NCBI GenBank assembly: GCA_002077065.1
Contig: NAJO01000030.1
Span: 1-64,000, forward strand
DNA from: Cryoendolithus antarcticus
Taxonomy: Eukaryota > Ascomycota > Dothideomycetes > Cladosporiales > Cladosporiaceae
Direction of reading: 5' to 3'
DNA length: 64,000 bases
The notes under the pieces are model-generated. The model worked only from the letters and a program-made list of their open reading frames with translations, had not been told where the DNA came from and did no database searches. A program made the translations under genes and the position numbers. Positions 35,261 to 55,804 of the stretch are shown piece after piece (the first letter of the stretch is position 1; each line of letters begins with the position of its first letter).

Positions 35261-36964
35261 TCACTCTGAACACATAACGACGCGACTTACTGGTCCCTTA
35301 GGTATCCGCAGATTCTTGAAGTAGTCCTCTGGGTAGTCTTGGACACCTGTTGCATTCCTCGCCGCTGCATCAGTCGGTGTTGGTCTCACAGTCACAGTGA
35401 CGCTCTCGATGATCACTCTCATCGGTCCATACGGGACGCCTGATGTGGCACTTGGCCCCGGTTGCGTGCCAGTCGTCGTCGTTGGGTATAACTGGGCGAT
35501 CCTTGCGATATCTCCGGGTGAGGGTCCTTAACAAAGAGTCGGGTTCTCCACTCCACACTCGTATGCTGGCTCCCCGTTGGCTTTCCGGTAGACCCAGTCC
35601 TTAGGCTGACCCGCTGGTGCCCTAGGACATGCTCATCAGTCTTGCACCCTGCTTGCATGAATGACGCTCCATTGGACTCACTCGACGCCTGCAGTGCCGC
35701 TATACAACATGACACTATCGAAGTCGAAGTCCTTTCCTGCTTGTAGGCTTTCTCCATCGGGGAGGTTCGCGTGGTCCTCGACTCCCCAATCTCCGGCCGC
35801 TGGCGCTAGTCAGCTAGGCGTATGTGGAGGATGAGGAAGATATACGCCGTACCCTTCCAATACTTGTTCACCAGCCGCTGATCTGCAAGCCTGTGAGTTG
35901 TGTGAGCTATGTGAGCTGCGGTGTCAGGCACGGCTGAGCTTTCACTCACACTTTGAGCAATCTAGCCGCCGGGTTGAGGCCACGGAAGACCGCGTCACCC
36001 TTGCCATCAACCGCCTTGAGAGCTTCGGAATATCCTGGGATAAGCCATGGACGCAGTTCTAAAGGCGCACCCTTGCCTGCAATCTTATCGTACGAACCCG
36101 GCCTTTGGTGTTCGTGGTATAGGCCAATCGCATGCCCAAGTTCGTGTGTCAAGTTCACCTTGTTGACCTTTTCATACCACTCTGTTCTGGCTGCGACTTG
36201 CGGACCAGTGTATGGATCGCGACCTTCCGGCCAGAATGCCAATCGATTCAGCCAAGGCTTTGCCTCATTGGAGTAGAAGCCCACGTTGCAGTTGCTGTCC
36301 TCGTCTTCGTCGTCCAATGCAATCAGTGCTATCTTGAGTGTGCGTGTAGGATCCACACCCGGAGCGGTGCACAGACATTTGTATCCTACACATGGTGGCG
36401 CAGCGGAGATCATCAATGCTGAGCCCTTCCCTGCGCGCAGTGCGGGCGTCCCTGGACATCGGTCAGCGCCTTCCTCGCCGTCCTGGGTAGTAAGTATAGA
36501 CGTCAGAAACGACATACAGAATCCAATTGCTTGGAGCGTCATCTCGAAAAGGACGTCCATGGCTTCCTGGTTCTCGAAACAGATCGGAAGGGTGTGTACA
36601 TCGGATCCAGGTGAACAGGCTGGCGAAGGGTCAGCACCAATCTACCGACAGCCCGACAGAGAACGTCTCGCCACTCACGTGGCCACACTGATTGATACCT
36701 CACCCCCTTTACAGCACCTCCGGGCTTACCGACCGCTGCGTCCCACTCTGGTGATGTCATGATGCTCGAGAAACGCTTGTCCTGCGCTCGCCCTGCGGAG
36801 CGTATGTGTTGCATCAGACGTGCATGCCATGGCGAGGCACTAGGTGTTGGAGAGGGGATGGAGGCAAGGTTGACGTCGTGGCCATAGAACTTCCGTGCCA
36901 CGGCTACGAGAAGCACGACGCTGCCGAGAGTTGCGAGCACCAGATGGTCGCGACTGAAGCGCAT
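35261..36964 (-). pseudogene. Astacin-like metzincin copy 1, nonsense-truncated
   Basis: Exons 36964-36679, 36619-36518, 36451-35950, 35890-35853, 35799-35682 and 35621-35528 all splice in phase, but the last exon meets TAA at 35528-35530. The frame then continues for about 89 codons to 35261 with clear family sequence (GPSPGDIARIAQLYP), so the stop is a lesion where the other copies have R, S or T. Residues before it include an N-terminal membrane segment (VLATLGSVVLLVAVA), zinc site HELGHAIGLYHEHQRPG and Met-turn DSVMLYSG. A 379-residue product could still contain the active site but lacks the C-terminal block. Either a recent pseudogene or a truncated but expressed protease. Confidence 0.8.
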
Positions 36965-37456
36965 ATTGAGTGGTCTCGAGGACTGTGGGCTGGGCTGCGC
37001 CAGTCGATTGGTGTTTCTATGAGGTTCAATTACCGCATATCTCGACAGCATCCCGACAGCTTTGGCTTGCGCAAACGAAGCTAGCTAAGCACACTCGCCG
37101 CATTGAATGACGAGAGGCATGGTACCGCTTGCTGACAATGACAACGACGAACCTTGCACGCAAAACGCACGGAATGACTGCTTCACATGAACTCATTCGT
37201 GCCACGCTACAGTGAGCTACTTGGAATCGACTACAGACATGCAGGATTATGGGAACGGGGCAGTGGTCAGAGCGTCCCGTCGACCTTGTTTGAGCCAGCA
37301 CAATCTATCTGGATCTAGGTCGTCGATCGACTCTAACGCATCCTCAATCTGCGGTCTTGACCTGGACATCTGGTCTTCTCCACCGGGAGCACCGGTTTCG
37401 GACAGTCGATTCTGCCCTAGGTCTTCTTGTCTCGGAGGAGATAGTCCTGGTCACTG
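36965..37456. other. Intergenic between metzincin copies 1 and 2
   Basis: Upstream region of copy 1 and 3' flank of copy 2. No other gene visible. Confidence 0.5.
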
Positions 37457-39186
37457 TCAGTCAATGCATGCTTGTGGGACGGTATATCCTAGATTCCTCA
37501 CACTAGAAATCTGCAACTCCCGGAGGGCCCCTCTGAACTCCTCGAAGTCTGCCGCATCCTCCGCCTTTGGGCCAGATGGCACAGTCGTCGGTGTCGGTCT
37601 TATAGTCACCGTGATACTGTCGATTATCACTCTCATTGGTCTATAAGATCCGCTCGATGTGGCACTCGGTATCGTCGACGGCGACGTGGCGCTTGCTTTC
37701 GGATACAGCATGCCCACTCTCGAGACGTCTCCTGGCGATGGACCTCGACATTGAGTAAGGTCCTTGACACCACACTGATACACCCAATCGCCATTGGCCC
37801 TCTCGACGATTTGATGTTGAGGAGGGTCGCTTTTCCTATTATGAATGTGCATCAGCATCATGTCCTACGCGCGGCCTAAGGGCCAAGGGTGCTGAACGAT
37901 CGACCGACTCGGCTCCTGCGTCTCCGTTGTACAGCATGATGCTGTTGAGATCGAAGTCCCCTCCATCGATGACCCCAAGATCGTGGGATGGGGAGTCCAG
38001 GCCTTCGACCTCCCTGCCAGAGGCACCTATTGGTAAATGAGCTCTTCTGACTTCTCGTCAAGAGGGACACTGGGTCGTACTTCGCCAATAGTCCCACACG
38101 AGGTTGCCATCGGCAATACTGTGGAATATGTCAGCCACCTTAAAAAGGGACTGGGAATGATCAGCCTACACTTTGGACATCCTGGCCAACGGGTCAAGAC
38201 CCTGAAACTCAGGCGCATCGGAATCTGCAACTTTCTTCCGCGCTTCAGCGTAACCTCGAATGTACTTCAGGTTGATGTGCAGAGGTGCATCCTTGCCCGC
38301 AATCTCAATGTATGCACCCTTCCTCTGATGGTCGTGCATCAAACCGAATACATGTCCAAGTTCGTGTGCGAATGCGGATATGTCTACGAGTCTGGCCCAT
38401 CGCTGGAACTTCTCCCCCTTGAGTCCAGCCGTAAGCTCGAACCTTTTTTCACGGCCGATGGGTGAGTAATAGAGGACATTCGGCCACTCATCCTTGCTAG
38501 ACGTCGCCATGGCTAATGTGGCTCTGCTGAAATCAGGATCACCCACGGCGTTCAGGACTATCTTCAATGTCCTTGACCCCTCTACACCCTTAGTGCTACA
38601 CAAGCACCTGTAGTTCGTGCAGGGCGGTGCGCCCACGATGTCTAATGCCGATGTACCCGAGACGCGCAGGGCGGGAGTCCTTGTCATATGTTCAGTCGCA
38701 TCCTTCAAGCATCATCGTGGCATGCGTCCTACGCACAGAAGGCCACTGCGTTCATGAAGATGTCGAAGAGCGCATCCATTGCTTTCTGATTCTCGAAACA
38801 GATAGGAACGTCGTAGCGATCGGATCCTGGAGCGCATGCTACCGAAGCGATAGTGTGAGCGACGAACATGTAAAGCGGAAATGCGGGTTATACTAACGCG
38901 GCCACGATACCGTATCCCTGACTTTCCCTGCTGGAGCACCACCCGGCTTGCCGATAGTTGCGTCCCACTCAGACTGCGTCATAAGACTCGCCCAGCGTTT
39001 GTCAGGCGCATGACTGGAGAGCAGAGTGCGTCCGACTGTAGCCCAACGCCATAGTGGGCTTCCGTTGCCGCGAGTGGCAGAAAGACTGGAGCTGGAGTAT
39101 TGACCGTACTCTCCGCCCGTCACAAAGAAAAGGAGCAATGCGGTGCAGATGACGATCACTGACAAGCGCTTCCGTCTTGATGTCAT
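37457..39186 (-). CDS. Astacin-like metzincin copy 2, intact, membrane-anchored
   Basis: Predicted zinc endopeptidase of 479 residues. Exons 39186-38898, 38838-38733, 38679-38170, 38118-38081, 38026-37909 and 37835-37457 keep frame. The short basic N-terminus (MTSRRKR) and hydrophobic segment VIVICTALLLFFV suggest a type II signal anchor with the protease outside or in the secretory lumen. Zinc ligands His237, His241, His247 and general base Glu238 lie in HELGHVFGLMHDHQRKG; the Met-turn is SIMLY (Met345). Cys-rich segments (PPCTNYRCLC) suggest disulfides. The C-terminal block CRGPSPGDVSRVGMLYP is complete. The second-to-third exon donor is GTAGGA and exon 5 ends at GTCGGT, both weaker than usual. 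Substrate unknown. Confidence 0.85.
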
Positions 39187-39610
39187 GACGAATAGACTGC
39201 AATTGTATCGAAGCGTTTCAGAGAAGATGACTTGACGCAGTATAGACTACACAGAGGAGGCTTTCAGAGGAACTGTCGATTGCTACCGACATACATTGCC
39301 AGCGAGACCTCCCATGCACGCACGGAAGTCTCAGTCTCAACACATGATCGCCTTCAACGCCCGCTGCCAGCCTCGATAACCTGCGACTGCCCTTCGAGCA
39401 AGCAAGCTCTGAAGAGGAACTTGATCCGTTGGCGTTGTGGAGGGCGGTTTGGCAAAGTCCCGATAGTCTAGATTTCTCCAACGGGAATGCTGAGCCAAGA
39501 GACTCTTCAAGTCGACAGCTGATCTGTGAGCTACTGCTCTTCATCAACGCTCGACGCCCCGAGAGCGTCTTCGATGTAATCCTGCGGTCTCCAAGTCAGC
39601 CTCACGAGCC
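39187..39610. other. Intergenic between metzincin copies 2 and 3
   Basis: Contains the copy 2 promoter and copy 3 3' flank. Read from copy 3, a GTAAGA donor at its end could extend it into this region, but I cannot support an extra exon. Confidence 0.4.
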
Positions 39611-41130
39611 CTACTTTCTTTGCGAGTGCACTCTTACCACTTGGTCTGAAAAAACGAGGGTGTCAAAGAAGCCGTCTGGATAGCCCTCGAATGCACTTCC
39701 GTTGCCGGTACCTGATTCTGGCGATGTTGTTGCAAGTGGATGAGGCCGTACAGTGACGGTCACATCTCCGACTACGACCCTCATCGGTCTGAAATCCGAC
39801 CTCGAAGTCGGAGCAGGCAATACAGTTGTCGCGCTTGACCTAGGGTATAGCGCTGCGATTCTGGCTATGTCTCCCGGTGAAGGCCCAGAACAATCTGGCC
39901 TTTCTCTAACTCCGCACATGTAGACGGGACTTCCATCAGCCTTTTGCATAATCTCATCGTGAGGAAGTCCTTCTATGGGTCTAACAGACAATTCTGTCAG
40001 TGTGTCACTTAGGAGGAGCTCACTTGCACGGCGGCCGACTCACTTCACACCCTGCCAACCGCTGTATAGCATGACACTGTTGAAGTCGAAATCGCCTCCC
40101 CACTGTGAGTTCATGCCTGGCAGGGTAGTGGTGTGCTGTTCTACTATCCAGGGTCGTGCATCTGGAATGATCAGTCTGACTCAATTGCTGCGCTTGATGT
40201 CATGCCTTACCTTTCCAGTACTTCTTCATCATGTCTCTGTCTTGGAATCTTCGCGGATGTCAGTGTCCAAGCTACTCGCGGTGCAGAAGTAGCCTACAAT
40301 TTCATACCCGTGCTACCTGCAGCAATCCCTGGAAAGCTGCATCGCTCGCACCGGTAACTTTGTTCATCACGTCGAAGTATCCGGGTATATGTTCCGGATG
40401 GAACTGCAGTGGTGCAGTAGCACCTGCGAGAAGATCATGCGAGCCAGGTCTTTGATGCTCGTGCTTGAGGCCCATTGCATGACCCAGCTCATGTGCGAAC
40501 GCCACTCTGTCATATCCCCTGTACCACTCTTTGTCGGCATTGCTAGACGACGCAGCTTTCCAGGTCATACTCTGTGGCCGGAAATGAAGCTTGTTCATCC
40601 ACTCCTTTTGGCCGCCGGACTGGAACCCTATTGTACAACGACTGTTGACTGGAGGTCCGTTGGGTTTGCGAACTTTCGGCCCGTTGGGATCAATGTATAT
40701 GATTTTGAGAGTCTTCATGCTGTCGATGCCCGGCCTGTTGCAGAGACACTTGAAGTCCTGGCAAGGGGGGGCTGCAGAGATTTCCAGTGCCGACCCTCCG
40801 GCAGCGCGCAGCGCTGGTGTCCCTTCGATAGTTGTCAGTAACAAGCTCGTCGTCGCATACTGATGTTGATGGTCCACTCTGCCCATGGAGCTGACTCACA
40901 GAACGCTACCGCTTCAGCAAAAGTTTCGGACAACAGAAGGGTTTAATGGCCGCGTTGCGTGTGGACAGCAGTCGAGAAGGGAGAGTCGTAGGTATCGCCA
41001 TGAGTTTTGCATTTGCAACCTCCAGAGGGCTTCCAATCTCGACTTTACTGGCTCCCATGTGTCGCAGCAGGAGCAAGAAGGCGATGACTGCAAGCACGAA
41101 GAAACTCTAGCGACGACAGTTGAAGAGCAT
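39611..41130 (-). pseudogene. Astacin-like metzincin copy 3, multiple lesions
   Basis: The zinc site HELGHAMGLKHEHQRPG (around 40461-40493), Met-turn NSVMLYSG and C-terminal block CSGPSPGDIARIAALYP are intact, and exon 4 is again 38 bases. However, the first exon (ATG at 41128-41130) meets TAG at 41107-41109 just before the membrane segment FFVLAVIAFLLLL. Part of the region between the anchor and the first conserved Cys block is missing. One base is also missing at the end of exon 3 (about 40302-40335), which puts a TGA before the donor that copy 2 conserves. I therefore call it a pseudogene. If transcribed from an internal start it would still need a frame correction. Confidence 0.72.
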
Positions 41131-41984
41131 TCTGACCGATTGAAATGCCCCCAGCTGATCGTGATCTGCTTACGCCTGGATGAATTACGAAAGCCATCAA
41201 CACAGCTTCTGCCTAATCGTTGTAGCAAACATCGCTAGCGGGCGTCACACAAGCCAGATGCCCGAAGAAAGCCGCTTTCCGTTCGACATGTCGACAGGCA
41301 GGAAATAGCCGTGTTGGCGGATTTTGCGGGACCGTGCAACGAGCTATCACGCACAGGCATACGTGACTGTTGTCCAGGCCATGGACTATCTAGGACACCA
41401 AACGTAAAGCCAAATCCAAACGTCTCGTGTCTGCATGCATAAGGTCGTCTTCGAACCCACGCATCAGCTGCGGCTTATGCTATAGTCGGAGTCCCGACGC
41501 TAAGAACTTGAACACCTTGTCAAGAACAGCAGTATAATAGGTCTTTAAGAGGAGCAGGTGTAAACTCTCAATCACTTCCACAGTATATTTAGGAGGTGTG
41601 GAGTGTGGACAAGTCTGCATGCGAAAGTATCTCTCAAAGGATTGTCGGTCTGTTGACGGAGTCGATTTAACACTAGCCGACGCACTTTCGTCCGTTCTCG
41701 GGTCCGGCATGCAGTTGAGCCGAATCGTACGGTGCGGTGAACAAGATCAAAGGCGAATCTGGCCATCGCTTGGGAGAACCAGATCCGTTCCGTCTAAGTA
41801 GGAGGCCGGACGAGCCATTGCATATCAGCTTGGCTGACAAACGTTCTACGTGCTGCTCCGGTGGCGGTTCGATCTCAGAGATTACAAGTGTAATGTGGAA
41901 GCACGATCTCGTGAGTAAGCTCTCCAACACCGCCCTTACCCGGGGAACCATACTTCGCACAGTCTTCAAGCTATCGGAAGCGAG
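41131..41984. other. Intergenic at left edge of the inserted gene block
   Basis: No gene supported. Small open frames on both strands overlap and match nothing. Border between the metzincin array and the SDR gene. Confidence 0.5.
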
Positions 41985-43029
41985 ATGTCATTGCGCTCAG
42001 ATATAGGCGCCACGGCGGATGTCACGGTCCCTACCAAGGTGTACTTCACAAGTCATATACACCACGAGGCTTATGATAGGATTTCACCTTCTCGGCCTGC
42101 GCTCTCTGCTAATGGCAAGAACGTCGTCGTGACTGGAGGAGGCACAGGTGAGAATTCCGTATTCTCAACGGGGAAGATCCGCATCGTGCTATGGCACCTT
42201 GAAGCAGCTAGCTGACTCCGCCCTGCATGAGTGTAGGGATTGGAAAAGCAATCGCAACAGGTTTTGCTCAAGCTGGCGCACAGTCAGTATCGATTCTCGG
42301 ACGTCGCGAAGGTCGTCTTATAGCCGCTGTGGCCGACATCAGAGCCGCCGCTATAAATGCCGCCTCCGTTGTAGGTTACGAGGTGGCCGATCTGCTCAAG
42401 CGTGAGGAGGTCGACAGAGCGTTCCAGTCCATTCTGGCCCAAACTGGGAACATCGAAATCCTGGTGTGTAATGCAGCTGTCCTACCAGCTGTTGGCCCGC
42501 TCTCAGGCTACGACGCCGACCAGTTCATGAACAATTTCAGCATCAACGTGCTCTCGACCTTCAACACCCTCCAGGCGTTCCTTCCACTAGCTCCACCGAA
42601 TGCTACGATCATCAACATAACGGCTGCTGCGGCACACATTGTTCCTATGCCGGGTGCGAGCGCCTACGCAGTTGGGAAGGCTGCAAGTTTGAAAATGGTG
42701 GACTACTTCGCGGCGGAGAATCCGAATCTCCACATCGTGAGCATGCAGCCTGGCACCGTTGCTACGGACATGAGTGCGCAGATCGGAGTCAAAGCGCCAG
42801 ACTCAGGCGAGTCGTTTCCAACTAGATGGCCAGTATGAGAGCTCGCTGATGACAACGAACAGCTGACTTGCCTGGTCACTTCTGTGTCTGGTTGGCATCG
42901 CCGGAGGCCAGGTTCCTCAAGAATAAGATAATCTGGGCGAACTGGGATGTAGACGAGCTGGTCGCAAGATCGGGTGAGATCGAGAACTTGAGGTTGCTCA
43001 CTTGTGGATTGAATGGAGTGCCAATGTGA
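41985..43029 (+). CDS. Short-chain dehydrogenase/reductase
   Basis: NAD(P)-dependent oxidoreductase of 299 residues, exons 41985-42147, 42237-42806 and 42863-43029. The cofactor motif TGGGTGIGKAIA spans intron 1 (GTGAGA donor). NAAVL is a variant of the NAG motif, and ITAAAAHIVPMPGASAYAVGKAA provides Ser/Thr-like and YxxxK residues (Tyr-Ala-Val-Gly-Lys), so the catalytic Lys and Tyr are present although the usual catalytic Ser position reads Ala/Thr. Intron 2 appears to use a GC donor (GCGAGT); splicing it gives the usual fungal ending PGHFCVWLASPEARFLKN and IIWANWDVDEL. Possibly a secondary-metabolite or detoxification enzyme; a cupin and a regulator are neighbours. Confidence 0.87.
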
Positions 43030-43447
43030 AACAGGTCTGACATTGGAGATGCGGAAGTTGAAGATGTGCATGTAGAAGCACATGGTTGGAGTATGCTCGA
43101 GTGATTGGACGGAGAAGCAGACTTCGCTCACTGCCTGCGGCGTGGCTGTAGCAACTCGACGACTTGTGGCAGAAGCGCTTGATGCAGAGCTTCGGGAGTG
43201 TCAAATGTACCCTTGCCTACGATGTGCCTAGATGCTGCAGTATGGGGTAGATGGGTTATTGTTGGGAGACCTAATTAAAGTATCCTGGTTGCTAAGAGAT
43301 TGCCACGAATTGATCGCTGGCAAGGGTATTTGACTGTCAGAGACACATCTCGGTACTAAGATTTAACACATCATCTCAAGCCGATTTCCAGTGACATTCC
43401 ACTGCCTGGAGACCAGAGCAACTATTGACGCATACTCTGACAAGACA
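43030..43447. other. Intergenic between convergent SDR and cupin genes
   Basis: No coding signal beyond the SDR end. Confidence 0.5.
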
Positions 43448-44014
43448 TCACTTATGCCCCGAGGTTGACTCGACCGACGTTGTCATCGCGAGCACCTTAC
43501 CACCCACCACCACCGGGTCTGCCGCCACCACGAAGAAGGCCATGCGGGTCCATTCCGTCTCACTCGGGTTCCGCCACAGATGGTTCGTGCCTCGCTGAAT
43601 GAAGACATCCCCAGGCTTGCCCACTCGAACATCGCCGTCATCCACTTGGTTCTCGATGGTCCCGAGAAGGACGATACTGTAGTCGACGCTATTCGTACGG
43701 TGCATCTCGCTCTTGAAGCCAGGCGCAAAGTCGAAAAGGCGCAAGTTGGTCCCATTCTTCGTGACTATGTCAGAGGGATTGAGCGTTCCCGACGTGAACG
43801 CCACCACGTCCGCATCATCGTTCATCTTCGCCGGCGACGTGACCGTGCCCCACAGTAGGGTACCGAATATGTGCGGCGAAAATTTCCCCCATGAAGGGTT
43901 CGCCGAGATGACATCGTGGGGTAGAAATGTAGAGAGTCCTCTCTCGTCGTGTGTGGTGATGTGCCGGCTTGGTGCTGGGAACCCAGACTTATCGTCGGGG
44001 TACAAGGCTGCCAT
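43448..44014 (-). CDS. Cupin-domain protein
   Basis: Single-exon protein of 188 residues with a cupin_2 barrel. The first motif is seen as APGFKSEMHRTNSVDYSIVLLG, with a metal-binding His and Glu, and the second as GDVFIQRGTNHLWRNPSE with the second His. Small fungal cupins of this type act as isomerases, dioxygenases or decarboxylases in secondary metabolism, and many are found next to SDR genes. No signal peptide. The exact reaction cannot be inferred. It is convergent with the SDR. Confidence 0.85.
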   Translation of the reverse strand: MAALYPDDKSGFPAPSRHITTHDERGLSTFLPHDVISANPSWGKFSPHIFGTLLWGTVTSPAKMNDDADVVAFTSGTLNPSDIVTKNGTNLRLFDFAPGFKSEMHRTNSVDYSIVLLGTIENQVDDGDVRVGKPGDVFIQRGTNHLWRNPSETEWTRMAFFVVAADPVVVGGKVLAMTTSVESTSGHK

Positions 44015-44600
44015 GTCGTTGTTTCGTGGTGGACCTAATTCTTCCGCTCTGGAATGAGACTCTTGACTTTCACTCGATCCGAAGCAGTACTACTGCATAT
44101 ATAATGAAGCATCCTCACTCTAACGCCGGGGTCTATGATCGATGTGTTTGTAAGCCACCGCGTGCTATTAGCAATCAACGACGGAGAAGTGCGTGCACTT
44201 GGTCTGATGAGCTACCTGGACCGTCCGTCGAGCCTTGAACATTCAACTTTCGTCCATTCTCGGCTCCGCGCGGCAGAGTCTCGGAGAAATACACTGTCAC
44301 ATGGAGGACTCCGTCTCTGTCTTCTGCCATGCTCATCACCTCACGGTACTCCATCAGCGTTACGTCGCTACATGACATGCTGAACCACGTATCTGGATAT
44401 TTCCTATCGGCAATTTCACACCTGAAATCGATTGCACATACAGTGCAGTCTTCGCTGTAGGACACCGTTCGAGCGATGAGTCTGCCATATCACACACGTC
44501 AACATCGCCGACGATGGCCGTGGCAGTGCAACCTGCTTGGAGACTCTGCGGATGCAGTGCACGTTGCTCAGTTTTTATGTCGTGCTCGTTTTCTTTCACC
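44015..44600. other. Intergenic; possible small ORF at 44175-44465 (-)
   Basis: A 96-codon minus-strand open frame (MSYSEDCTVCAIDFRC...) looks vaguely protein-like with several Cys, but has no signal peptide, no recognised family and no clear splice partner. I do not call it a gene. The rest is the cupin promoter. Confidence 0.3.
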
Positions 44601-45650
44601 TCATCCCGACACCCCCGACTGACAGGACTCTATGAAATCGTTCTGCGCCTCTAGACCTTTGAGCTGACTGTAGCAGTGAGTTTTGCTGCTGTCACCGGGC
44701 ACTATGAACAGCAAGTCTACGCGCGCGATGACAAATAGTAGCAGGACCAGGACTTCCGGCACGAAGTCGAAGCAGTAGAAGGAGGCTTTGGAGTCGTACC
44801 TGAGCCGATCGAATGGTCAATATACGTCAGCACGCAATGAATTTGCCTACGTACCATGCCAGGCTCGTTATCGACATAGGTGTCATGTATGTGGTGCCAG
44901 CTCGAAACCCAGCAATGGTGATACCAAGAGAGCTCGTTACAACCAGGATCAGTGTCTTGAGCTCGGTAGTTCCATCGCCGAACTGCTCGGCGTTCGGAGA
45001 GCGCTTAGGCAGATAGGCGGGTAGCAACAGTGCGATCGGTAAGACTGCGATGAACAGAAGATAGCTGGTCCCGAAAAGGTAGATGTCTCGACAGACGCTG
45101 CGAGTGTGCTGATCGAGCGTATAGAAACTCAGAACGATGGTCGAAATGGTCATGACGAGAACGACTCCGATCACAGCGTATAGGCTCTTGAGTGCAACGC
45201 TCAACCAACGCTCCCAGCCGATCCCTGGTTGCTTCGCCCTCAGGATACGTTGTGCGAAGACCACATTGACGAAATAGATGAGAAGAGTTCCAGCGTTCAA
45301 GAGGATCTCCGCTGCGATCACAAGACTGACATTGTCGAGATTGTATGCCCAAGCGATACGCAGAGAGCAGGTGATCGTCCGTACGTTGCAAAACCCACCG
45401 AGCAGTCCAGAGATGATGAACTTGTGGTTCCTGCGTCGATTGAGTCGGAAGATCGTTATGTTCGTGGCCGCAAGGCAAACGTATATGAAGAGGAAGACTG
45501 CCGTCACGGGGACATCGAGGGTCTTGCTGGGTACTCCACCAACGCTGGCTGTATCTGGCGCATACGGTGGCTGTCTGGCAGTCAGTGTGATTGAACAGGA
45601 TTTGAATGGTGCATACTGACACCTTGGGGGGAGCGTGAAGGGCTCGCCAT
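44601..45650 (-). CDS. DUF3112-family seven-TM membrane protein
   Basis: Multi-pass membrane protein of 314 residues. Exons 45650-45621, 45570-44855 and 44799-44601. The start ATG at 45650 gives MASPSRSPQG, spliced (GTCAGT donor) to PPYAPDTASVGGVPSKTLD, the usual N-terminus of this fungal family. Six to seven hydrophobic segments are visible, with motifs FIISGLLGGFCNVRTITCSL, RIAWA and FVNVVFAQRILRA. The last splice restores the family end YDSKASFYCFDFVPEVLVLL. No function is established; the layout resembles Rta1/7TM receptor-like fungal proteins. It is co-located with the regulator gene that diverges from it. Confidence 0.82.
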
Positions 45651-46103
45651 CGGTGATGAGGTGCTGAGGCCACTTGATCAATAGAACTTGGGAGCAGCGA
45701 GTCTGCAGCGCTTATGAACACGAAACGGGTTGTGTTGTTTTGGCGAGCGGCGTTTTTGACTTCTGGGCGCTATTGTTCCACCGTTCTTGGACGGAACCTT
45801 TGGAGTAGGCATCATTGGAGCCTCCTGGTGACCTGCCACCTTATTCCTGTCATGCGCCTGCCATTCAGATAGCATTACCAATCAATCTGGTCCCAGAAGT
45901 TGCTCTTCTCCCCCAATCTGCCTCGACTTATAATCCCGTCCGCTTACGCCCCGACTCTGGTCCGTTCTCGTGCCGAGATACCCGTAGCGTTCGGCTGGCC
46001 GATTATTATGTTCCACCTGACCTTCGAACATGTTCTTGAGTCTGACATTGCACATTCAGTGTTCGGACCGCGCGCGCCCCAAGACGTGAACTTCGGATCA
46101 ACG
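45651..46103. other. Intergenic, divergent promoter of membrane-protein and regulator genes
   Basis: No supported gene. Probable shared regulatory region. Confidence 0.45.
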
Positions 46104-48438
46104 ATGCAAGATAACACACCGCACAAATTCCGTCGCGGAACGCAGAGGCGTGTATACCGTAGACCAGTGTTTGCAACAAGATATCATGAAGCTGACATCT
46201 TATCAGCTGTATCGAATGTCAGCATGGCTTACTACCATTTCTGTGCGCTGCTGAACAGTCACAGGCCGGCAACGGAAAATTCGCTGCTTGTGGCCATCCG
46301 CAGATGCACAGTCGTGTCGAAATTGTTCTGAGCGCAATCGAGCATGCGAGCTACAGACAGTTGCAGCCCGAAATGTCGATTCGCTGAGACTAGGCTCTCG
46401 GGAGCGTATTGCACGGCTGGAAGAGCGCATTGCGCGGCTCGAGGGGAAGCACACAAGCCTTTCGAAATATGTGAAGGCTCAGCAGCCCAACGCAGCACCT
46501 GCTGCACTTGAGCCTGTCTTTGACGAGGTGACTGAAGGTAGGCATGGCGAGCATATCGAGATCGACTCGGAATCTGAGATGTCGGATCAAGTAGCGAGCA
46601 CGGTAAGCGACTGACAGCTACAGAATTTCGACATGTCTGTTCCCCTCACTAAATTCTATGGTCAATACTCTTAGCCATCACACCTTCGGCTACTTTTCAA
46701 CCACAGTCTGCTCAGCGTCCGAGAGCATGCTCCACGACACTCACGCCATCACAAACCCTCCGAGGGGCGGCTGTCTCGAGCGAGGAGTGCGCTCCAGGCT
46801 TTGATGGTCTCTAAAGAGAACGCCAATGTCCTGGTAGCACAAGCTATGGAGTGGCTGACATGGGCGAACTCAATCGCACAACTGGTATTCATTGCTAGGA
46901 TAGAGGTCGATCTCATTCTGGATTGGGATCAAGCAAGGGGACCCCATGCACAACCGGCAGCAATCGCCGCCATTCTTTTGATCACAGCACAAGCGATTCA
47001 CCTTACGCCACAAAGCTCTCTGCATGGCCAGCTTATCGATGCATCAGCATACTCGCAAGCCGTCTCAGACGCAATTGAGACTTACATAGTGAATGACGAT
47101 GTGTTTGCAGGAACGCTGGAGGGCATCGAAGTCTCCTTGCTCTTTCAACGGTTGTAGGTATAGTCCTAGAATCCTGGACATCCGCTTACTGACTTCGAGA
47201 GGCATTTTGCGCATGCCAGATTCCAAAAAGTCTGGCTCGGTCTCCGCCGTACAATCGCTCTCGCAGAGATCATTGGATTGCCTCGTGCTTCTGACACGTC
47301 CGTCACGAATCGATCCGAGGAGTCTGGCCGGGCTCGAAATGGACAGACCCGCGAGGAGGCCGGTGCCTTGCTTTGGCAATCGGCATGCACAATGGAACGT
47401 CTTGCGGGCTGCATGTTCGGTCTCCCCATAACCGCTAGGATGGCTCCGTTCCCAATAGATCGACCGGTCTTCGTAGGCATGCATCTTGTCCCCCAGGCGT
47501 ACTTCTGCCGCTTGGCAGATATCGCTGGCAAGATCCCAGCGTTGGACGATCTCTCCATCAAAGGACGGTCATCCCGTCAAGCCTGTGACATGGTGTTGAG
47601 CATAGATCAAGAGTTTCGAGAGTTGACAAGCCTCGCACCCATGTCTTGGTGGGACGTGCGTCCGAATGAGAAGAAAGTTACACTGGATCTGGTTCTCCAG
47701 TATTTCCAGCAATACTTCACAGCGAGGGCGCACATGCAGCTGGCCCTCCACAACGATCGAAGCAACACATACGCCTATAGTCACATGGTCTGCACCGAAG
47801 CTTGTCGGGATCTGGCTGTTCGTTACGCTGCATTGCGCCCTCTAGTATTAGGCGGGTTCTTTCCGGTACGATTGTTTGATGTGCAAGCACTCACCGCTGC
47901 AATCTTCCTCCTTCATACGTGTTACAGTCCAGGCAGCTCACAAGGAATGGACTCAACCCGAACACCACCTTCTCTGGTGCTGATACAGCAAGTCGTAGAC
48001 AGCATGGACTTGGCCTCGAAGGCAATTGGGGGCGGGCACTTCGCTCAAGAGGCTGCACGTACTATCCGATCACTGTCGGCACTTCTGAGTAACAATCACT
48101 CGACAGATTCACGATACGTCAGCTTGAGGGTTCCTCTGCTGGGGAGGATACATATTAGGCGCCAGGACCCGAACCTGACGTCAGAGGAATTCTCGACTGG
48201 CAGCTCTGCTCTACCACCTCAGATGCAAGAACCCGAAAGTGCAGCGTCTATGCAGGTCCTGGAAACTGGTGCACTTGCCAACGCGATGCCGCTGGATGGG
48301 ATGACGACTGATCCAAACAGCTGGCTCATGGAAATCTCTGGAGTACTGCCATTCCTATCGCACGATGCTCATGCTCCAGATCAATCGCAGATGCTTGGTG
48401 ATTTCGACACAGAAAGCTTTGGCTTCGATCAGGTGTGA
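46104..48438 (+). CDS. Zn(II)2Cys6 transcription factor with microexon
   Basis: Fungal-specific regulator of 709 residues. Exons 46104-46168, 46207-46217, 46265-46602, 46675-47153 and 47202-48438. Splicing of the 11-nt second exon builds the zinc cluster CIECRQRKIRC...SCRNCSERNRAC with all six Cys (CxxC-x6-C and CxxC-x6-C), preceded by the typical lead FRRGTQRRVYRRP. A coiled coil for dimerisation follows (RERIARLEERIARLEGK). The middle domain (fungal_trans-like) includes QALMVSKENANVLVAQAMEWL and CMFGLPITARMAPFPID. Introns 1 and 2 are only 38 and 47 nt with GTTTGC and GTCAGC donors. It probably regulates neighbouring SDR, cupin and membrane-protein genes (inference from location). Confidence 0.83.
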
Positions 48439-48911
48439 GCATGTGATGCCAAAGTCAGCTGCTAGAAGCTTTTTTAAGGACAGCGGACCTTTATTGCGAT
48501 CCACGAGGCAGTAGTGTCATATGAGCTTCTGGTGTTGGCACGTGGCGCCCTAAGTGAATCTTGAGCAGGCATCAATCGTTGCGTAGGAATTTTACAGCGA
48601 AGAAGAGCCCAACATTGCGTCTACATCGCTGTATTATTGGCGAGGAGAACGGCGTCCTGGCCTTGCCCTAGACTCGCGAGTAATCCGGATGGCATCGCTT
48701 CCATAGCTTCGATTCCTCAGCGCTTCCGTTCATGATCGGAACGCTTGACGCAACTGGGCGTAGCGTCATTGTCAGACCCTCCATGATCACTCGCATGGGC
48801 CTGAACGCTGGCTCCTCTCCGGCCTGCTGTAGGGCTTGTTTTGTAGCAGCCGGACTGACTTGTATTGTACTCGACTTCGATCACTTTCGTGCTCCGCAAC
48901 GTTCTTGTCAC
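48439..48911. other. Intergenic at right edge of the inserted gene block
   Basis: 3' flanks of the regulator and metzincin copy 4. No gene visible. Confidence 0.5.
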
Positions 48912-50702
48912 TTAGCTTCTAGCTGCGATACCCATGTGGTCCATTCTGCACGAGACCTGCTATTTGATGCATTAGCGAGCTTTCACATGTTACCAAAGGG
49001 CTTCTCACCGTATCGTAGTCCAGATCTGCGCTTTTCTGTGCAAGGAATCCAGGAGGATACGCATTATAGTCACCTTTGGACGGCGTCTGCGGTGCCACTG
49101 GTCGTACGGTCCTCGTGACGTCGCCTCTGATTACGACCATTGGCTTATATGCTGGTCCCACAGCGACCTGCTGCAGCGCTCGACCCTCAAGCAAGTCCCT
49201 GGGAGTCGTCGGACTCCTAGCGGGATACAGCGCGAGCCTCCGAGCAATATCGCCATCGGATGGTCCGGTACATTTTCGGGGATTCGGGTTGCCACACGGA
49301 TGAATCTGATTATATCGGCGACCCTGAGGCCAATCGAGGTCATCCTCCCAGATCTTGAGATCGCGGATGATAGAGCCCCTGGCTTCGCCCTTACCATCCA
49401 CGCTGAATAGATTAGCGCAAGTATGGGACATCTTTTCAGCGACGTGACTACCTACGATACGCCTGTTGTAGAACTGTAGATCATGACACTCTTGAGATCT
49501 ACAGGTCCGCCGCTAGCATAGAATAGGTGTTCCATCTCGCCGTTGCCGATGGGTGCCCACGCTCCAGCTTCTGTGTCTGGGTCAGCGGGCCGTAAAGACC
49601 TTTGCGCCATTGAATATCTCACCTGGCCAATGCTTGTCGACCAAAGACAGGTTACGTAGCCTGCGTTGTCGGTTAGTATCCAGTGCGTTTTCTAACACTC
49701 GTCCTGCTTACAGAGCCCAGATCCGCTCGGGTCCAACGAGGCCAGCAAAGCCCAGCTCATCCGTCATGTTCTTGATCTTCTTGAACGTAACATTATAGCT
49801 GCGGATGTACTGAGGTCGGAAGATTATACTTGGGTCCCTCGCACCCCACGCATCGTACACCCCTGGACGTTGGTGCTCGTGCAGCAAGCCGGAACAGTGG
49901 CCAAGCTCATGTGCAACAGTGAGATTGTTATCTGCTGCAAACCAATCGTGAAAGTCTTGGTCATCGTCCGTCTCGATCGGCTCTGCAAGTTGCTTGAGGA
50001 AACGACGGACAAAGAATAACCTGTTTGGCCAAGGATCATGAGGGGAACTGGAGTTTGTGTTGAAACCAAGTGTACAATTCGAGATTAGCGTCGCATTTTC
50101 GCTGTACATGAGCTTCAACACTCGTTTTTTGTTGATTCCGGGGATCGAACATAGACAGTCCGTCGTCGCTCCGCACTCCCTTGCTGGCGCTATCCTGATC
50201 GAAGACGAGGTGTTGTTGTCTGCAAGTACTGGTTGCCCTATCAGGTTCGTCAGAGATCGGCGGGCGTCCTACTGTGTGCGGAATTCTATACAAAAAGCCC
50301 AGGCACCGATGAATTCGACTCGCATCTGTGGAATGGTGTACTCGTCTTCGAAGCAGTACCGTAGGACATGCTTTCCAGAGTGTGGCGCACATTCTTGGAA
50401 AAGCACTGTTAGCGCGCGATGTGATTAGTAGCTTTCATCGGGTTGTGGCAGAACCCACCTGGCCAAAGCTGCTCTTTTCGGACCCTCTCGCCTTGCAGTC
50501 GAATAGCCGCTGTGTACTCGTCGTCGGTCATTATACTGATGTAGCGCTTCCGGAACTGCTTATCGAGATAGGCGGCGCCTGCCATGACGTGGCGTGTAAC
50601 TTGTCGAAGTCTCGCTACCAAGTCATTTTGAGAGTGTCGTCGGTAGGTAGACAGAGCAGTGAGTATCAGGACAGCAAGTCTCAACACCGTGAGGAGACGC
50701 AT
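48912..50702 (-). CDS. Astacin-like metzincin copy 4, intact
   Basis: Predicted protease of 492 residues; exons 50702-50459, 50405-50292, 50237-49712, 49660-49623, 49570-49456, 49402-49009 and 48959-48912. The N-terminus (LLTVLRLAVLILTALS) can be a signal peptide or anchor. The zinc site is HELGHCSGLLHEHQRPG, with all three His and the Glu, and the Met-turn is KSVMIYSS. The end block CTGPSDGDIARRLALYP is intact. The last small exon (GTGAGA donor, CTAATG branch, ATAG acceptor) replaces a read-through end at 48919; either is possible. This copy is the most diverged at its C-terminus, with basic MVVIRGDVTRTVRP. Confidence 0.83.
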
Positions 50703-51030
50703 AGTTCAAACTCGTCCTGTGCGTGGAGTATCGACGAGACCGAATATGGTAATATAGAGGAGCTACAGATGGTGCATCAGCACGTGAATGTGGTTTGCTG
50801 GCTATGTGTGGTGGACGTGATAGTCGGTCCGTCTAGTATGCGCCCGTGCAATCACATACTCCGATGTTGCCGACTGCTATACTTGGTGCCATGGAGCAGA
50901 CGTACCCACATGAAGTTGTGCCTCTACAGCGCACCACCTGCCGAAGTCTGGTGACTGTCATTGCCGGTGATCTCGATGTCCTGGCACTGTCAGTAGACTG
51001 CCCGTCCTAGCGATCATCGGGTCCCAGCAT
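50703..51030. other. Intergenic between metzincin copies 4 and 5
   Basis: Promoter of copy 4 and 3' flank of copy 5. Nothing else seen. Confidence 0.5.
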
Positions 51031-52756
51031 TCACAAACGCACCAACGATGTCAGCGAGCTCATCTGTTTTGCAAAAACTGGGGGTATTGAAGCCTTCAGC
51101 TTCTTGTAAGCCTCACTGCCGAAGTGTAGCGGAGTTGACGACGGCAGCGGTCGAAGAGTAGCATTGTGTTTGCCAAGACTGACACGCATGGGCCGCCAAT
51201 GCGTGGCATTGGACGAAGGAGCCTTCAAGCCCTGCAATTGATTCGCTTCTCGCCTACGCCGAGCGAAGAAATCGCGAGGGTATAACTGAGCGATGCGAGC
51301 CATGTCACCCGCTGAAGGCATACATGCCGCAGGGTCCAGTGTGCCACATATGTAGACCGGGCTGTAGACCCATCCACCAGGCTCGTCTTCGTCGGGGTAT
51401 CCGCCGCCACCATGTGCTTGTGAAAGGACAGCGGAAGATTTGCCATGGTCATCAAACCTGTGCAGTACACAACTGTCAGTCCGATACCACAGTGCCTGCG
51501 TTGGCTGATGTAATACTCGGTACCGACGGCGGTGCCATAGATTATGATGCTATCGTAATCGATCAGTCCACCGTTGACTATGTCAAGGTGGGTAAGGTCC
51601 GCGTCGCTATACGGCACCCAATCAACCACTTCTATCTCGGAGTCAGGCCGATACTCATAATCGAATGGCGCAAGTCCAAGTCATACCTGGCCAGTGCTTT
51701 TGTGCAAGAAACCTGTTTGAGAGTCTGAGATATGTCAGCGAAGTGCTTACAGCGCTTTGAACTTGCTGAACTCACATTGCCATGAATCGGGCGCCCAGGT
51801 CCAGACCCTTCACCCAAGGCGCCTCATTCTCGGTGAGTGTGTAAAGTGTGACTGCTGCGTTTGAGTAGCCCGCGAGGTATTGGGGTCGGAATATGAGCGA
51901 CGGGTTCACACTGTTGAAGATGTCATACGCTCCGGGTCGCTGATGCTCGTGATGGAGACCCATTACATGGTCAAGCTCGTGTGCAATCACTTGCGTGTTG
52001 TATGCTCGCCAATACTGCCTCCATTGCTCGTCAAGAGCATCGACTAGAGGTTTACGAAGTAATGTCATGTCTGGTGCGGTGATTTGTACATTCATCTGAT
52101 TCGCCCACTTTTTTGAAAAGTCGCTCATGAATCCTACGGTTGCCGATGAAGTCGGCGCAGTAGTCTCGTTGATCCGCAGAGTACTAAAGGAGTCGATTCC
52201 AGGTGTACCGCAGATGCATCCGTAGTCATCGGGTGCGCAGGGCGGGGCGGGGCGAATATGGAGGCCGGAGTCGATCAAGGCAGGCACCCCTTCGCCATCA
52301 GTATGTGTTTCCATCCCGCCTCTCATCGGAACTCACACTTCAGCCATGCCTGCATCCACAGGTCTTCGAGCCTTTGCGCTGTGGTCTCGTTCGCGAAGCA
52401 GTAAGCGAGCATGTAGTCTCCATTGACGCTACCGCAAGCAGTCGCTGTGACTATCGTCAGACCTGTTTCGTAAACCGTGAAAGCAGTGGTGACTGACTTG
52501 GCCATTGCCCACCCTTTGGAAAGATCTGTCCCGTTCGGGCACTGTACTCGAGTTCTGATTCCACACTCATGAACCTTTTCAACCGAGCACTCGGCCGTGT
52601 ACCACTGGGCGCAGCGAGGAACTGCCACAATTGCGATCCAATGGCATAAAGTATCCAGAGCAATGCTAGTATGCCGATCCATGCGGCGAATTTGATCGCA
52701 ACCGACTTGATCCGCAGACCGTCGAGCATCGATGATCGCCAACGGCCATGCTTCAT
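51031..52756 (-). CDS. Astacin-like metzincin copy 5, Met-turn variant
   Basis: Predicted protease of 486 residues; exons 52756-52498, 52444-52337, 52289-51776, 51724-51687, 51631-51517 and 51457-51031. The membrane anchor FAAWIGILALLWILYAIG lies about 20-25 residues from the start MKHGRW (a second ATG at 52729 would shorten the cytosolic part). The zinc site HELDHVMGLHHEHQRPG keeps all ligands, but the Met-turn position reads DSIIIYGT, with Ile replacing Met. The end block is CMPSAGDMARIAQLYP. The Met is near-universal in metzincins but not always essential, so activity is uncertain. Confidence 0.82.
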
Positions 52757-53406
52757 GCTTTTAAGGGTCGTGGTCGGCTTGTGTAGCAGCTTGATGGAGT
52801 CCTGCTGAGATTGTAGAAGGATATATTGCGAGAAAGAGATTCGCGAATGCATGCCGCGTTGTTCGCATGCGTGCATGAGGTGTTGACGTCTAAGGGTCGA
52901 CACTTTGCCATGATACCACGAGAAACATGTAGAGCTTTTCAAGTACGGGATGGGATGGAGCTTGTAGAATTTCGCTCTGCAGTAGTCTGGTAGGGAGAGG
53001 AGAATACCTATGCTTAATACGAATGCCTATCGGGACCAGAAGGCAGCGCGCACAATCCAATGAGACATCGCCAGGCCCAGAACGAGGGTAAGTGGCTGTA
53101 TGACCAGTGCATATACGTGCATCTAGAGTTGGCATGTTGAACGATGTGTTTGGCGCGCAACAAATATTGAAGTGGTGAAGTGGGAGAGCAGTGTCAGAAT
53201 ACTTTGACAGCAGATGGAGCTGATGCATCTGCTCTCAACGGAGCGCGACTAGCTCGGCGGCGCGCGGACTATAAGAAAGACGGGTGACTTCACGGACTGA
53301 GAGACGAACGGGAAGGGGAGGTCAGCCGTACTTGCCGGAACCAGTCAAGATTGACAAGGGAGTATATAGAGCCTCGGCGAGATCATCACCGTCGCTCCTT
53401 CCTCGA
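52757..53406. other. Intergenic between metzincin copies 5 and 6
   Basis: No gene supported; upstream region of copy 5. Confidence 0.5.
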
Positions 53407-54260
53407 TCAGACGACATTCATCGTCTGGTAGAATTCGCCAGCACCCTCATCCTCGAACCCAGCATTCACAGCAGCCAGCAATACATGCGACAAGCGGCAC
53501 TCGACCTGAGTACTACCGGTATTGGATCCGACGGAGAGTGTCCGAGCCGGAAGAGGACGGATCGTGGTGGCATAGTTCTGAACGATCATTCTGATGGGCG
53601 AAAGCGCCGACTCACCAACGGTGTCGCGCTTTCAACGCGGACGATCGAGCGGCATACTGAGACCCTTCCCGGGGTCATTCGTACGTGGGTACAGCTCGAC
53701 CACGCGCTTGATATCGCCAGAGGAAGGACCGGTACAGTGCCTCGGATCCTGATCCAGACACGAGGGCGCCCGATGCCGCGCGGACTGTGGGAGTTCAGCC
53801 CGGAGATGGAGGCGTGGCTGAGAGATAATCAGCTTATGCCACTTGTGTCAAGCACTAGGATGTCTAACCCGGCCACGGCGCATTTGGCCTTCGCGTCAGT
53901 TCGGCCACTGGTATATTGTGAGCCTGACTGTACTCGTCTTCACTTTGTTTGCTGAAGAAGCGCTTCATTATCCTTGTAGCATCCTCATTGCTGTACTCCG
54001 CGATGCTTCAAATGATGATACCCGAAAGTGCCGCGAAACTGCAGTTGAGCACCATCCGGCGCACCCGCGATGCCAGAGCCAGCATCCTCGACCTCCGTAG
54101 CGTGCTCATTGAGGTCGCCGTGTCGAGCTATGATAGATACGGCGGCGGCTTCAGGCCCATGCAAGCTCGATAGCGACATGCGTGACCCACCCTCAACCAT
54201 CTTGACCGCTTGCTCATTCTGTCGAGACACGGGAACCGTTGGCATGCATTCGTGCAGAAA
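53407..54260 (-). pseudogene. Astacin-like metzincin copy 6, decayed relic
   Basis: The terminal exon (53784-53407, after a CTGAAC branch and CACAG acceptor) is clear: it encodes CTGPSSGDIKRVVELYP and then RMIVQNYATTIRPLP like copies 2-5, but carries TGA at 53632-53634. Upstream, around 54190-54250, a stretch aligns with the ends of exon 2 of the other copies (GTTCC...TCGA...GAAT.AG.AAGC). The zinc-site exon is largely gone; only a weak trace (GYHHLKHRG) remains near 54015. No start or full frame survives. Confidence 0.62.
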
Positions 54261-55182: not shown

Positions 55183-55804
55183 AGTACACGAGCAGTGCAC
55201 GTAGCTATGTCTATTGTCGTGGAGCGATGTACTTTGTCTTCGTCGCGTCAAGGCAGGTCGCGTTCATACTACGCTCATTCGGGTATGGCGTGGAAGGTGC
55301 TTCCGACTTCCTCACTTCATTGCACATCAATTGCATCCATCACTTTGCCGTTGTGCTATACAACTTCGGGTACCATGTGCAGTTACTTCTTCGACATGCT
55401 CGAGAGGATGCGCTGAGTCGGGTGAGATGGTCGATCCGCTGACTGCGGTCAGATGACCTGTACGCTCGTCCATGTTGGTCGCGGTTTAGACGCGACAGAG
55501 CAGCATACTGTCGGCCCATTCAACATATGCCGGCACAGTCCTTCCCTTCACACCTATCCATCCACCACTACCTACTTATGAAACCAGGACGATCCATTCG
55601 ATTAATCGAACGCCCATGTTAGCTGCGTCCGACTGGCAAGGAAGGCACGACGGACCCAATGTTACACGACTGCCTGCAGCGCAGCGGCAGCGTCCGCCAC
55701 GCCAAGTCGAGCGTTTCTGTTTATCATGATACTCATTTCCCCTGTAGTATATTCCAACTCACCCTCAAACTCTGATCTCTCGGATCGCGCACAAGTTGTC
55801 CACC
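55183..55804. other. Intergenic, divergent promoter of VPS51 and RdRP
   Basis: No coding region supported; several short open frames overlap one another. Confidence 0.5.

Follow-up and report, generated by a model that had tools for sequence, protein, structure and literature searches.

A tandem array of putative astacin-like metalloprotease genes near a chromosome end in both genome halves of the rock fungus Cryoendolithus antarcticus

Fungal astacin (M12A) families are already in print (PMC3087541, PMC4738786 and PMC2409186), so that the kind of family considered here is a described one. According to a 2010 study connecting fungal astacin families with pathogens, these families are ancestral to Pezizomycotina, were lost in all the non-pathogens sampled there, are expanded in the banana pathogen Mycosphaerella fijiensis and have been kept or enlarged in Pezizomycotina that infect plants (PMC3087541). 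A 2023 review puts the number of astacin sequences outside Holozoa below 400, suggests horizontal transfer, gives xxRxDRD after the family Glu as a criterion for astacins, and describes the latency of the bacterial enzyme myroilysin as different from that of the animal forms (PMC9848320). Here we describe an array of related genes and relics in the window, by which we mean the whole 64,000-nucleotide stretch analysed (positions 1-64000 of contig C74, in a genome assembly of 46.97 Mb and 149 contigs) from Cryoendolithus antarcticus, a dothideomycete of the Cladosporiales. The array is probably a divergent branch of the known fungal astacins, and no paper on it was found, judged by title and abstract. 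We consider it likely that its full copies encode divergent fungal astacin-like enzymes secreted as pre-pro-proteins, and that the array, common to both halves of a doubled genome, has evolved by duplication, replacement and loss.

The array lies on the minus strand between 54.0 and 35.3 kb and holds five copies with an HExxHxxGxxH zinc site, all of which keep the catalytic exon, and two relics, c0 and c2.5, which have no such site; labels run down the minus strand as c0, c1, c2, c2.5, c3, c4 and c6, with no c5. The motif occurs five times in the window, on the minus strand only (c1, 51981-51949; c2, 49911-49879; c3, 40493-40461; c4, 38366-38334; c6, 36146-36114). An earlier note on this DNA had proposed six paralogues on one strand, a number that stands if c0, without its catalytic exon, is counted, but a seventh remnant, c2.5, was missed. 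The exon pattern it described was borne out, with phases 1,1,2,1,2 and GT..AG junctions rebuilt in c1, c2, c4 and c6 and an exon 4 of 38 nucleotides in all five zinc-site copies. Its motifs were less uniform than claimed: the site continues as HEHQRP, with Glu directly after the third His, in four of the five, but as HDHQRK, with Asp, in c4, and the SxMxY Met-turn with its Tyr zinc ligand is present in c2, c3, c4 and c6, but c1 keeps the Ser and Tyr with Ile for Met (SIIIY). With the c6 model, the remaining four zinc-site copies are recovered through their catalytic exons (E 9e-18 to 3e-43), which excludes chance likeness. No further copies were found by tblastn with three models (E <= 0.01) in 42.4-48.6 kb, an interval occupied by a cupin gene and a DUF3112 gene.

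Profiles, motifs and a predicted fold suggest that the array belongs to the astacin-like (M12A-type) metzincins as a divergent branch in fungi, a variant of a known enzyme family. Among Pfam models, PF01400 matches spliced c6, c1 and c2 best (26.8, 20.0 and 16.9 bits, against a curated cut-off of 22.5 bits), and a deposited protein in which c1 and c2 are fused scores 35.1 and carries a UniRef name beginning 'Peptidase M12A domain'; as single exons, none of the five window copies reaches the cut-off (best 22.3). Profile comparison likewise links the array family to PF01400 proteins. No model of M36 (fungalysin) appeared among the Pfam matches of the five window exons (E <= 1) or of spliced c1, c2 and c6 (E <= 0.1). 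We set aside as main evidence a PDB profile match obtained with alignment A5 (E 4e-17) because A5 includes the bacterial astacin P0021, and alignments A6 and A7 were built in its place.

A comparison set of fungal PF01400/M12A proteins (P0008, P0009 and P0011-P0015, from sources including Meristemomyces, Karstenula and Paraphaeosphaeria) resembles the array: all seven have the Glu-bearing zinc site, a Met-turn that includes the Tyr, and the WP start, 5/7 have a dibasic site, and 4/7 have a C-terminal GD-x-x-R, a motif that fits astacins. The set has 22-29% identity in A5 to P0005, a relative of the array, and differs from the array in that three of its seven members have D-R-D in place of G-x-[YH]-D (G-A-Y-I in c4) and in having the array's C-terminal tail T-[VIL]-R-P at most partly. 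Animal astacins (crayfish astacin, BMP1/tolloid and hatching enzymes) share with the array HExxHxxGxxHE, S-x-M-x-Y and the fold predicted for P0005, but their Cys pattern is another one, and the distance from the third His to the Met-turn Met, about 45 residues in astacin, is 98 in c2. Two absences also separate the array from the animal enzymes: DRD follows the Glu in none of the five zinc-site copies, the Arg being present in all five, and FxGD, the Asp latency motif that animal forms share in the pro-segment, was found in none of six spliced models, in none of the 21 proteins retrieved (several being incomplete) and, by eye, not in c1. Of 14 retrieved proteins whose site is intact by regular expression (bacterial P0021 excluded), P0009, P0011 and P0015 have DRD. 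The top Foldseek match of the P0005 model is the bacterial M12A enzyme myroilysin (5zjk, E 6.7e-4), whose Cys-based latency does not apply here because the pro-stretches of c2 and c6 have no Cys, and carry a dibasic site instead.

We take Rachicladosporium antarcticum CCFEE 5527 to be the older name of C. antarcticus. Under that name the fungus was described as an Antarctic endolith of 47.4 Mb and 18,781 genes, the strain coming from the interior of rock (PMC5502844), and a later paper, which proposes duplication of the genome, places it among rock fungi with more than 18,000 genes (PMC12560822). The window from 8776 to 64000 is collinear with positions 1,082,096-1,023,647 of contig C35 in 11 blocks of at least 200 bases, seven of them at 85-88% identity and the others at 63-77% (one being c6 against the C35 copy c4h), and C35 terminates in TTAGGG repeats; this identifies the two arrays as counterparts within a genome that is doubled or hybrid, and we mark the C35 copies with the suffix h (c0h to c6h). 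In the tree c2, c3 and c6 each group with their own C35 copy (support 88/92, 99/98 and 98/95). At position c4 the two copies are not sisters; c4h groups with c6 (90/87) and c4 sits on a long branch of unsure placement. Synonymous divergence (dS) is 1.40 for c4/c4h, at 46% amino acid identity and a ratio of nonsynonymous to synonymous divergence (dN/dS) of 0.34, against a dS of 0.29 for c2 and 0.36 for c6, and both 51315-53205 (most of c1) and 37146-39526 (c4) fall outside the synteny blocks of at least 200 bases. Judged by this tree and these gaps, namely because c4 and c4h are not sisters and no block spans c4 or most of c1, two of the seven positions have turned over while their flanks are still collinear.

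The copies differ in their state of preservation. At c0 (53524-54007) the catalytic exon is lost, leaving a piece of the N-terminal exon with a dibasic motif (54007-53867) and a C-terminal tail with one stop (53790-53524); c0h (about 1034.3-1035.4 kb of C35) retains a damaged catalytic part, HEIGHAIALQH, and has stops. The open gene c1 (51031-52756; 488 amino acids, HELDHVMGLHHEHQRP) has six exons (52756-52498, 52450-52337, 52289-51776, 51724-51687, 51631-51517 and 51457-51031), of which exons 3-5 match the deposited P0001, and c1h has HKPGH in place of HExxH and split frames. The intact gene c2 (48912-50702), with seven exons (50702-50459, 50393-50292, 50237-49712, 49660-49623, 49570-49456, 49402-49009 and 48959-48912), retains a complete zinc site along with the Met-turn and the C-terminal helix motif, and c2h is open as well. 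The deposited B0A48_12563 (789 amino acids) fuses c1 to c2 and starts inside c1 intron 1, and our c1 and c2 junctions match it between the two ends of the c1/c2 join; this gene call (48912-52756) and B0A48_06982 on C35, which joins c2h and c2.5h, are probably gene-calling artefacts. The C-terminal tail motif alone survives in c2.5 (48668-48838), and c2.5h (1041.1-1042.7 kb) retains a zinc site together with an in-frame stop.

The pseudogene c3 (39611-41130) has a stop in exon 1 and another at the end of exon 3 and is about 215 bases shorter than its counterpart across exons 1-2, with zinc site, exon 4 (40248-40211, 38 nucleotides) and Met-turn still legible; c3h has stops too. A lost donor of intron 3 in c3 was dropped after comparison with c3h, the stop lying ahead of the donor. 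Gene c4 (37517-39186) is open as far as its model extends, the 3' end being unsettled, and comprises exons at 39186-38898, 38838-38733, 38679-38170, 38118-38081, 38026-37909 and 37835-37517; the intron 2 donor is shifted by 4 nucleotides and that of intron 5 is weak (GTCGGT). The truncated gene c6 (35264-36964; exons 36964-36679, 36619-36518, 36451-35950, 35890-35853, 35805-35682 and 35621-35531) meets an in-frame stop after 381 codons, 3' of the Met-turn and ahead of the C-terminal helix motif and tail, the latter remaining legible down to 35264. Its counterpart c6h has a stop and a lost acceptor. The two stops (35530-35528 in c6, about 1,056,166 on C35) are different codons, three codons apart at the junction of catalytic domain and tail, and this pair, with low dN/dS upstream, may reflect coincident decay or a shared release of the tail from constraint.

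The models thus agree with the earlier note in placing intact, truncated and decayed members in tandem near a telomere, which is read in the sequence as (ACCCTA)17 at 1-103. The extent of decay raises the possibility, doubtful in our view, that the whole array is dying, with its genes relics or inactive and no copy of present importance to the fungus: damage affects c0, c2.5, c3 and c6 on both contigs and c1 on C35, the window's c1 lacks its Met-turn Met, and behind the two stops of c6/c6h dN/dS rises to 0.58 (89 codons, few changes). Against this, c2 is open on both contigs with a dN/dS of 0.20 (473 codons, Fisher p 7e-20), and both c4 and c4h are open as far as modelled. The dN/dS comparison that the earlier note had asked for, here of copies with their C35 counterparts, gives purifying values, with 0.25 for c6/c6h before the stops (381 codons); the non-orthologous pair c4/c4h was excluded from this argument. 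Seven neighbouring genes compared with C35 have dN/dS of 0.01-0.26 and dS of 0.29-1.43, so that c2, by these ratios, is under clear constraint, looser than on most neighbours. Positive selection is unsupported because both comparable pairs have low ratios (0.20 and 0.25; the sequences were too few for a site test), and the birth-and-death evolution under changing selection proposed earlier is therefore retained as birth and death, mostly death, with the changing selection unsupported. Decay by repeat-induced point mutation (RIP) was also considered and rejected because the indices of c1, c2, c3, c4 and c6 (TA/AT 0.57-0.76; (CA+TG)/(AC+GT) 1.09-1.29) resemble those of the whole window (0.67 and 1.23). 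Few positions look able to yield an active enzyme, namely c2 on both contigs, c4 with its changed site, and c4h.

All seven copies examined from the window and C35 carry a hydrophobic stretch near the N-terminus (mean hydropathy of the best 17 residues 1.95-2.59), and the earlier note had taken it for a membrane anchor. In favour of type II ectoproteases that keep this stretch as an anchor, 22 residues, several of them basic, precede the stretch in c1, where an uncharged run extends over 31 residues; c1 is the least clear case. A dibasic motif is the pattern of a fungal pro-site as set by Kex2 specificity, and a [KR]R site follows the stretch in 18/21 sequences, 37-63 residues from the start and upstream of the catalytic-domain WP; an aromatic residue or Ser comes next in 16 of these 18, often as Ser-[Val/Ile/Leu]. 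The site is immediately before WP in P0012 and is lacking in c6h, which is broken otherwise, and in P0011 and P0015. The PF01400 relatives P0008, P0009 and P0014 have, by eye, an ordinary signal peptide at the start. The dibasic pattern thus favours a signal peptide and short pro-stretch over an anchor, and we judge the anchored form unlikely and the enzymes probably secreted. In such a pathway the hydrophobic stretch would direct each full copy to the endoplasmic reticulum, a Kex2-type protease would cut at the dibasic site, and a mature soluble endopeptidase, with three His, the catalytic Glu, the Glu after the third His, the Met-turn and the Tyr ligand, would leave the cell.

That these are metzincins of another family (reprolysin, matrixin, serralysin or snapalysin type) is very unlikely: the c3 and c4 exons score highest with Reprolysin models, c4 exceeding the Reprolysin_4 cut-off, the low-confidence fold model of a window protein matches across metzincins in a tie and reads only as 'metzincin', and ADAMTS chains rank high among the Foldseek matches listed for the P0005 model, but 18 astacin rows are ranked first for the P0005 model, and the Glu (Asp in c4), S-x-M-x-Y, GD-x-x-R and PF01400 matches described above are astacin-like. 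The M12A-like assignment of the earlier note is accordingly upheld by profile links and the fold of a relative, as metzincin and, more narrowly, as astacin-like ancestry.

Searches of the genome went exon by exon, and their counts are lower bounds. Family pieces (E <= 1e-3) lie on at least 11 contigs (C74, C35, C110, C62, C71, C57, C1, C59, C61, C65 and C70), with zinc sites read on six (C74, C35, C110, C57, C62 and C1) and weak matches alone on C59, C61, C65 and C70. There are about three places on C62 and three within 6 kb on C110, the latter a tandem set at C110:70086-75709 in which one piece has an uninterrupted open frame of 285 amino acids. The PF01400 model itself finds two pieces in the genome, on C62 and C35, both above its cut-off. 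Protein relatives number at least six from Cryoendolithus, Rachicladosporium sp. CCFEE 5018 and Oleoguttula sp. CCFEE 5521, and at least 11 in each of the further searches; taxon breadth is a lower bound because each search scored the roughly 8000 candidates sharing most words.

Around the array, the divergence between genome halves is uneven. A dS of 0.29 is shared by c2 and an RdRP gene (55796-58138, plus strand), and values of 0.55-0.94 are found for the Lgl, Cpn60, RINT1, MFS and ESCO genes; exchange between the halves may account for this. A HET-domain gene (25531-27699, minus strand) has 54% identity and a dS of 1.43 to its C35 counterpart, against 76-99% identity for six other neighbours, and may be an allorecognition gene with fast turnover. 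The segment adjoining the telomere (104-1600) is AT-rich, with a guanine-plus-cytosine content of 0.35 against 0.54 for the whole window, and RIP-like by its TA/AT index (1.81 against 0.67).

These proteins most likely work outside the cell as zinc endopeptidases, either scavenging protein or serving in competition with other members of the rock community; the predicted activity would act on extracellular protein that may come, for example, from dead cells or from those neighbours. As to the host or competitor proteins named as targets in the earlier note, the strain comes from the interior of rock (PMC5502844), no host was met with in the literature consulted, and competitors are a conjecture. 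Expansion is common to the array and the astacins of plant-pathogenic Pezizomycotina, but theirs is in pathogens and this one in a rock-dwelling fungus, so that the array does not fit a pathogen-only reading of fungal astacins, provided that the families of that study are the same (PMC3087541). That a single rock fungus carries pieces of such a branch, scoring near or under the Pfam cut-off, on at least 11 contigs suggests that counts of fungal astacins are too low and that these enzymes also occur outside pathogens, and the pairing of the arrays allows the turnover of genes near a chromosome end to be compared cleanly. A bolder and less likely reading is an astacin branch in which Kex2 release replaces the Asp-switch latency of animals and which a rock-dweller has kept and multiplied at considerably more than ten genomic sites; neither animal contact nor pathogenicity would then explain fungal astacins, and arrays near chromosome ends may supply changing extracellular proteases for endolithic contests.
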